Shown: one piece after another, positions 451-37,135 of the stretch
Numbering within the stretch: position 1 is the first letter of the stretch
How the letters are laid out: every line of letters begins with the position of its first letter
Source: Antedon mediterranea
Taxonomy: Eukaryota; Echinodermata; Crinoidea; Comatulida; Antedonidae
Assembly: GCF_964355755.1 (NCBI RefSeq)
Contig: NC_092675.1
Location: forward strand, 129,001 to 193,000
DNA: 64,000 nucleotides
Reading direction: 5' to 3'
Notes under the pieces: model-generated
The model's database searches: none
Told to the model about the DNA's origin: nothing
Seen by the model: only the letters and a program-made list of their open reading frames with translations
Translations under genes and position numbers: made by a program

Positions 451-520
451 ATGTGGCAATTGGTTACTAGAGTTTTGCTTATATTCATCTGTAGGTTGAT
501 CCATAGTGTACACTGCCAAG
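451..520 (+). CDS. RPTP exon 1: signal peptide
   Basis: ATG at 451 opens 23 codons beginning [14 protein letters not shown] and ending HCQ, then one G before a GTATTG donor at 521. The segment has a basic residue followed by a hydrophobic core, as expected of a signal peptide. It ends in phase 1, exactly what the first EGF exon (857) needs, so the joined codon is GAT (Asp). It is too short to be found by ORF length alone. Upstream ATGs exist, and no transcript evidence is available. Confidence 0.6.

Positions 521-37135: not shown

Follow-up and report, generated by a model that had tools for sequence, protein, structure and literature searches.

A receptor tyrosine phosphatase gene with a predicted exterior of twelve EGF modules in the crinoid Antedon mediterranea

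Background

A stretch of 64,000 nucleotides from the crinoid Antedon mediterranea (hereafter the window; positions 129001-193000 of contig NC_092675.1, here C6, in an assembly of 354 Mb and 18 contigs) probably carries one gene that encodes a receptor protein tyrosine phosphatase (RPTP) with type I membrane topology. The predicted protein consists of a signal peptide, an array of twelve EGF modules, a single membrane span, a catalytic first phosphatase domain (D1) and a degenerate second one (D2). The classes of receptor phosphatases are defined by what they carry outside the cell, a scheme built largely on vertebrate members. R2A members have Ig and FN3 modules outside and R2B members MAM, Ig and FN3 modules, R3 members combine an FN3-only exterior with a single phosphatase domain, R4 exteriors are short and glycosylated, and the R8 exterior is of the RDGS type. 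The R5 members PTPRG and PTPRZ carry a carbonic-anhydrase-like domain outside (PMC10815196), and a review describes the membrane-proximal domain of tandem-domain RPTPs as active and the distal one as a pseudophosphatase (PMC7959691). No EGF-only RPTP was found in the open-licence literature searched, which included passages of PMC10815196 and PMC7959691; the wider literature may hold one, and similar EGF-RPTP proteins may well have been deposited for other invertebrates.

Results

Gene model and domain architecture

The gene was modelled on the DNA sequence alone, each exon being set by a stop-free segment and its splice sites. The joined model has 30 exons on the plus strand (451-37135; positions without a contig name are those of the window) and reads in a single frame from signal peptide to stop, as the initial annotation had proposed, although this continuity is partly by construction because the splice sites were picked by hand to hold the frame open. 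The spliced coding sequence is 3567 nt long including the stop (1188 residues plus stop) and contains no premature stop and no frameshift; 28 of the 29 introns are GT-AG and the other, after the third D1 exon (D1c, ending at 31844), is GC-AG. Exon 1 (451-520), with an in-frame stop just upstream, encodes the signal peptide (a 23-residue stretch) and ends in phase 1, each of the 12 EGF exons has phase 1-1, and the membrane-span exon (27149-27281, phase 1 to 2) starts in phase 1 and is followed by a juxtamembrane exon (27729-27841, phase 2 to 1). The signal peptide and the membrane span were judged by eye, and two long introns, of 16.2 kb behind EGF1 and of 4.9 kb behind EGF12, are putative joins.

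The EGF exons are located at 857-982 (EGF1), 17201-17317 (EGF2), 18954-19076 (EGF3), 19337-19429 (EGF4, with a short C5-C6 loop), 20153-20263 (EGF5), 20479-20598 (EGF6), 20876-20992 (EGF7), 21271-21381 (EGF8), 21472-21582 (EGF9), 21675-21791 (EGF10), 21884-22000 (EGF11) and 22097-22207 (EGF12). The six-cysteine EGF pattern is present in 11 of the 12, and EGF9 has five cysteines with Cys4 replaced by Phe. The count of twelve comes from this cysteine pattern and not from twelve separate Pfam matches, since the Pfam EGF family (PF00008, E 8.6e-20) passes E 0.01 in four stretches of the modelled protein. With these results, the twelve modules and the single membrane span described earlier were recovered. 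Pfam recognised only EGF-type or related small cysteine families in the modelled exterior, where Ig, FN3, MAM and carbonic-anhydrase-like modules were absent from the scan, which agrees with the earlier view that this ectodomain is unlike those of the human-type RPTP classes.

When the consensus patterns for O-glucose and O-GlcNAc were applied to the EGF modules, five carried the former and four the latter, one of these with His at the aromatic position; EGF5 has both. The consensus scan of the exterior also gave one O-fucose match and four N-glycosylation matches.

D1 is encoded by eight exons (31006-31181, 31315-31402, 31765-31844, 32569-32703, 33055-33174, 33443-33588, 33928-34063 and 34219-34368; 31006-34368 in all) and D2 by seven including the stop (34534-34633, 34887-34957, 35142-35270, 35705-35836, 36053-36210, 36421-36556 and 37016-37135; 34534-37135 in all). 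Together they form the two stretches matched by Pfam Y_phosphatase (PF00102, E 4.9e-134). The usual catalytic motifs of these phosphatases are KNRY, WPD, HCX5R and QTxxQ, and the usual loop has the form WPDxGVP. D1 keeps a 22-residue stretch and QTxxQYxF, and its loop reads WPDKYVP, so that a neighbour of the WPD loop is changed. Because D1 retains the catalytic cysteine and the arginine, the aspartate of WPD and both KNRY and QTxxQ, it should be catalytically active. D2 retains KNRY and CX5R, and should nevertheless be inactive or weak because WPD has become WPG and Gln replaces His (QCMDGVGRSG). The earlier description of an active-looking D1 and an altered D2 thus holds at the level of motifs, and with a signal peptide, one membrane span, D1 motifs and a D2 the model has the make-up of a tandem-domain RPTP.

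The intron after EGF1 (983-17200) contains retroelement ORFs in both orientations, presumably Penelope-like, with numerous related copies in the genome. Of seven ORFs scanned there with Pfam, four matched reverse transcriptase, GIY-YIG or both, one of them under the curated cut-off, and three matched no family; no hidden receptor module was recognised among them, and small exons of another type could escape such a scan. In the intron that separates the EGF12 and membrane-span exons, the single ORF scanned (22049-25071) likewise yielded no hidden module and matched reverse transcriptase (RVT_1, E 1.1e-34), which we take to be of non-LTR type. Downstream of the receptor gene a SPATA6-like exon was found at 57573-57878 (minus strand, E 2.2e-19). 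By eye, exons at 46737-50600 (plus) and 41449-41763 (minus) presumably resemble cystinosin and GILT, and four single exons tested gave no Pfam match. A long open frame at 44130-45047 (minus) with repeats of about 25 residues is apparently a tandem DNA repeat in frame.

Growth of the EGF array

EGF8 to EGF12 form five similar units whose exons are spaced 201-209 bp apart and share 74-92% of their nucleotides. The closest pair, EGF10 and EGF11, is identical at 92.3% of exon bases and 86.7% of upstream intron bases. An inverted partial copy (described below) has three EGF exons of this type, so the number of similar EGF exons differs inside this genome (five against three). Support for the idea that the repeat number varies is therefore confined to copies within this one genome.

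dN was below dS in every pair tested: 0.035 and 0.285 for EGF10-EGF11, 0.094 and 0.281 for EGF8-EGF12, 0.05-0.07 and 0.36-0.41 for EGF8 against the three EGFs of the inverted copy, and 0.035 and 0.08 for the membrane-span exon against its inverted copy. These values cover 5 of the 30 exons, none from D1 or D2, with 2.5 to 7.5 changes per class, and only suggest constraint on the receptor exons at the protein level.

Partial copies around the gene and competing readings

An inverted partial copy lies at C6:320051-321624 (minus strand), some 155 kb past the receptor gene. It has the order EGF-EGF-EGF-membrane span-juxtamembrane, as in the window gene, with 83-93% identity overall: 89-92% protein identity for the three EGF8-type exons, 93% for the membrane-span exon (C6:320536-320670) and 83% for the juxtamembrane exon (C6:320051-320122). 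Its juxtamembrane frame meets a stop soon past the conserved part and no D1 exon was matched between it and the D1 of a neighbouring RPTP gene 73 kb further on, so the copy is partial and without a phosphatase; it would be a dead fragment or else a receptor lacking the enzyme. The arrangement suggests that the EGF, membrane-span and juxtamembrane parts were duplicated together.

On the other side, a second signal-peptide exon (SP', 87% identical) and copies of EGF1-4 (50-69%) are present from C6:118806 to about 122.8k on the plus strand. SP' is 10.6 kb upstream of exon 1 and the array ends 6.6 kb upstream. EGF1', EGF2'', EGF3'' and EGF4' retain splice sites and phase, EGF2' has no donor and EGF3' is truncated. 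The array may represent a relic or serve the same gene as an alternative 5' end, and because this duplicated 5' half sits just outside the window, the N-terminus of the receptor is uncertain and may differ from that modelled with exon 1. Further EGF exons of another kind, with 36-45% identity to those of the window, were seen at C6:111758-112515 (plus) and C6:293522-293874 (minus).

These copies bear on three other readings of the locus. The EGF exons (451-22207) could belong to a secreted or membrane EGF protein and the exons at 27149-37135 to a separate RPTP with its real exterior elsewhere, a division that fits the reverse-transcriptase ORF within the 4.9-kb intron between them and the stop that EGF12 meets 12-14 bases after its donor when read through. 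We regard it as very unlikely, as the phase 1 end of EGF12 fits the phase 1 start of the membrane-span exon and as three EGF8-type exons adjoin the membrane-span and juxtamembrane exons in the inverted duplicate. The conserved order in that duplicate is the strongest argument beyond phase continuity that the EGF and phosphatase exons very probably form one gene. It is even harder to see the locus as a decaying or non-functional copy: the loss of Cys4 in EGF9, the retroelement ORFs in two introns and the partial copies on both sides would agree with decay, and they are set against 30 exons free of stops and frameshifts, the catalytic motifs of D1 and a dN lower than dS in each of the five exons compared.

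A longer gene, or one with alternative 5' ends, that starts at SP' (C6:118806) and adds EGF1', EGF2'', EGF3'' and EGF4', is a more serious contender, which we still think rather improbable. These exons make a chain on the same strand with splice sites and phase 1 joints, and no exon resembling the membrane-span or phosphatase exons of the window intervenes before the window gene. The window gene has, however, its own signal-peptide exon, and the missing donor of EGF2' and the truncation of EGF3' look like those of a decaying duplicate. The single gene of 30 exons is thus the reading that we follow below.

Class placement of the phosphatase domains

Scores of D1 against known domains did not point to one class. 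Trimmed D1 scored against single-domain solved chains in the order PTPRM (236 bits), PTPRT (231), PTPRK (228), 2nv5 (223, which we take to be PTPRD), PTPRE (216), PTPRA (210) and PTPRG (197). Untrimmed D1 scored 255 bits with the D1 stretch of PTPRS and 253 with PTPRK among solved structures, and 243 with PTPRS D1 and 233 with PTPRM by BLAST; D1 is 41-44% identical to the D1 domains of PTPRS, PTPRM and PTPRA (43% for PTPRA). The ranking of R2A and R2B therefore flips with trimming, and an R2B assignment from the single top score was dropped for this reason.

A tree of 13 D1 rows recovered the expected groups, namely the genome's own LAR with PTPRS/PTPRF (97/97) and PTPRA with PTPRE (100/99). 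The window gene, its neighbour, two Tie-type genes, PTPRM and PTPRG formed a polytomous fan, in which the rows of the neighbour and the Tie-type genes are incomplete, with missing exons left as gaps. The phylogeny of D1 against all RPTP classes that had been proposed was in this way obtained in part: the window D1 falls outside the LAR clade, with no supported grouping with any row, in a tree with one R2B row and two R4 rows and without R3, R8 and other R2B members. It also lies outside the supported PTPRA/PTPRE pair, to which, with two R4 rows, a sister position is possible. Bit scores, BLAST and the 13-row tree hence yield no class for D1.

Among the known D2 domains compared, that of PTPRA is closest to the window D2 (166 bits, 36% identity), and the neighbour's partial D2 reaches 165 bits (39.9%). 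The neighbour's D2 scores best with PTPRM D2 (128 bits), a comparison made with a PTPRM sequence from outside the solved structures; R2B D2 domains were absent from the best 60 solved-structure matches. By Pfam, the exterior has neither the Ig and FN3 modules of R2A, nor the MAM, Ig and FN3 set of R2B, nor the carbonic-anhydrase-like domain of R5, and the two Y_phosphatase stretches together with an exterior free of FN3 set the receptor apart from R3 and R8.

Other receptor phosphatases in the genome

The neighbouring RPTP gene is on the minus strand at C6:232.9k to about 260.8k, 67 kb downstream of the window gene. Its model, which is incompletely spliced, includes exons for D1, D2 and a membrane span. 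Its exterior carries an F5/8C-type module (E 6.6e-9) together with roughly five HYR-like segments, of which two were tested and scored E 4.3e-17 and 2.5e-11; no EGF module was recognised there. HYR modules are abundant genome-wide (1417 first-look candidates, 150 scored). Among the tree rows the neighbour's D1 is the most similar to the window D1 (51% over 193 columns; 31-62% between individual D1 exons). A whole-genome search with the window D1 placed a LAR-like gene first by E value outside the window (42-48% over its longest exons), with 50-57% in two exons of the neighbour (C6:241-245k) and 58-61% in a few single exons elsewhere; no locus close to the window D1 was found elsewhere in the genome. 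A common origin of the two phosphatase bodies is suggested by these similarities, against which stand the tree, where the two are not grouped, the equally high score of the window D2 with PTPRA D2, the best score of the neighbour's D2 with PTPRM D2 and the first rank of the LAR-like gene in the whole-genome search.

A Pfam search of the whole genome gave at least 153 PTP exon matches, and Tie2-type EGF exons are widespread, with at least 155 matches. Positions transcribed by hand for 63 PTP matches, in 51 gene groups that may include non-receptor PTPs, were compared with those of 83 EGF matches, and in at least 26 of the 51 groups a same-strand Tie2-type EGF exon was located no more than 25 kb upstream. 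In 200 random placements the number of such groups averaged 0.46 and never exceeded 3, and none of the 51 had an opposite-strand Tie2-type EGF exon within 25 kb among the 83 matches listed. The window gene belongs to the other 25 groups, with none of the 83 listed matches within 25 kb upstream of its PTP.

Three of the groups with a Tie2-type EGF were read. In the receptor genes at C6:26.30M and C5:12.03M the phosphatase is preceded by segments of Ig-like, EGF (four) and FN3-like type, and the Ig-EGF part of the former matches human TIE2 (2gy5) with E 1.7e-36; of the Tie-type pieces tested with Pfam, Ig and EGF did not reach the curated cut-offs and the single FN3 (from the C6 gene) exceeded its own. 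At C5:7.66M four Tie2-type EGF exons lie upstream of PTP exons. A coarse scan of about 20 kb at the PTP locus C2:18.19M showed no EGF-like module. Of the 83 listed Tie2-type first-EGF exons, 53 have no listed PTP match within 25 kb downstream; they include clusters at C6:26.04-26.28M, C3:13.14-13.24M and C8:15.76-15.79M, within which no tyrosine-kinase match was present among the matches listed.

EGF-bearing receptor phosphatases thus seem to be common in this genome, as a Tie2-like mixture, and the window gene seems to belong to a group with varied exteriors and not to stand alone as a new class. The proposal of a new receptor type in the initial annotation finds partial support, in that D1 joins no class in the tree; it did not foresee the upstream Tie2-type EGF in 26 or more of the 51 PTP groups, nor the F5/8C and HYR modules on the gene with the most similar D1 in the tree.

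Discussion

Judged from the DNA, our analysis establishes the architecture of the gene, the phase 1-1 EGF exons, the unit duplication of EGF8-12 and the differing exteriors on other tandem phosphatase bodies of the genome. The EGF exterior was probably assembled by exon shuffling onto a body of membrane span and phosphatase that would be distantly related to that of the F5/8C-HYR neighbour. The EGF rod would most likely meet a ligand or a neighbouring cell and act as a contact or ligand sensor. What would follow is drawn entirely by analogy with the general working of RPTPs: the ligand or contact would alter receptor clustering or local exclusion, D1 would then dephosphorylate tyrosines of nearby proteins, and D2, itself inactive or nearly so, would have a regulatory or docking role.

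The presence of several exteriors, including a Tie2-like one, on the RPTPs of one genome is more interesting than a single EGF-only gene. An EGF-only exterior near an F5/8C-HYR relative, together with many Tie2-type ones, suggests that the sensing half is exchangeable, and at this locus the shuffling of exons, changes in repeat number and the choice of ligand could be put to a concrete test. With a Tie2-like exterior on a phosphatase, one may further ask if receptor kinases and receptor phosphatases are rivals for shared ligands. As a speculation that we consider improbable, the genome might hold a large, tandemly arrayed RPTP radiation which swaps Tie2-type, F5/8C-HYR and EGF-only exteriors, with the partial EGF-membrane-span cassettes nearby as recombination partners; it may form a recognition repertoire (immune or self/non-self), in which the EGF-only gene would vary in copy number and phosphatase-less relatives would act as decoys.

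Comparison with known systems

With R2A/LAR and the R2B members PTPRM, PTPRK and PTPRT the receptor shares the type I form, the tandem D1 and D2 and high D1 scores, but it differs in its EGF exterior and in a D1 that is outside the LAR clade and is not placed with PTPRM. The R4 members PTPRA and PTPRE are approached by the window D2, nearest to PTPRA D2 among the known ones compared, and by 43% identity in D1; their exteriors, by contrast, are short and glycosylated, and the window D1 is not inside their pair. The neighbour has the most similar D1 and differs in its F5/8C-type and HYR-like exterior. The three Tie-type RPTPs read in this genome also have EGF modules upstream and PTP exons downstream, whereas their EGFs are of another type, and those at C6:26.30M and C5:12.03M combine Ig, Tie2-type EGF and FN3. 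Finally, the window EGFs resemble the arrays of Notch and teneurins in their Pfam EGF matches, a sub-threshold teneurin EGF match and consensus sites for O-Glc and O-GlcNAc, and differ from them in being joined to a phosphatase instead of a Notch or teneurin body.
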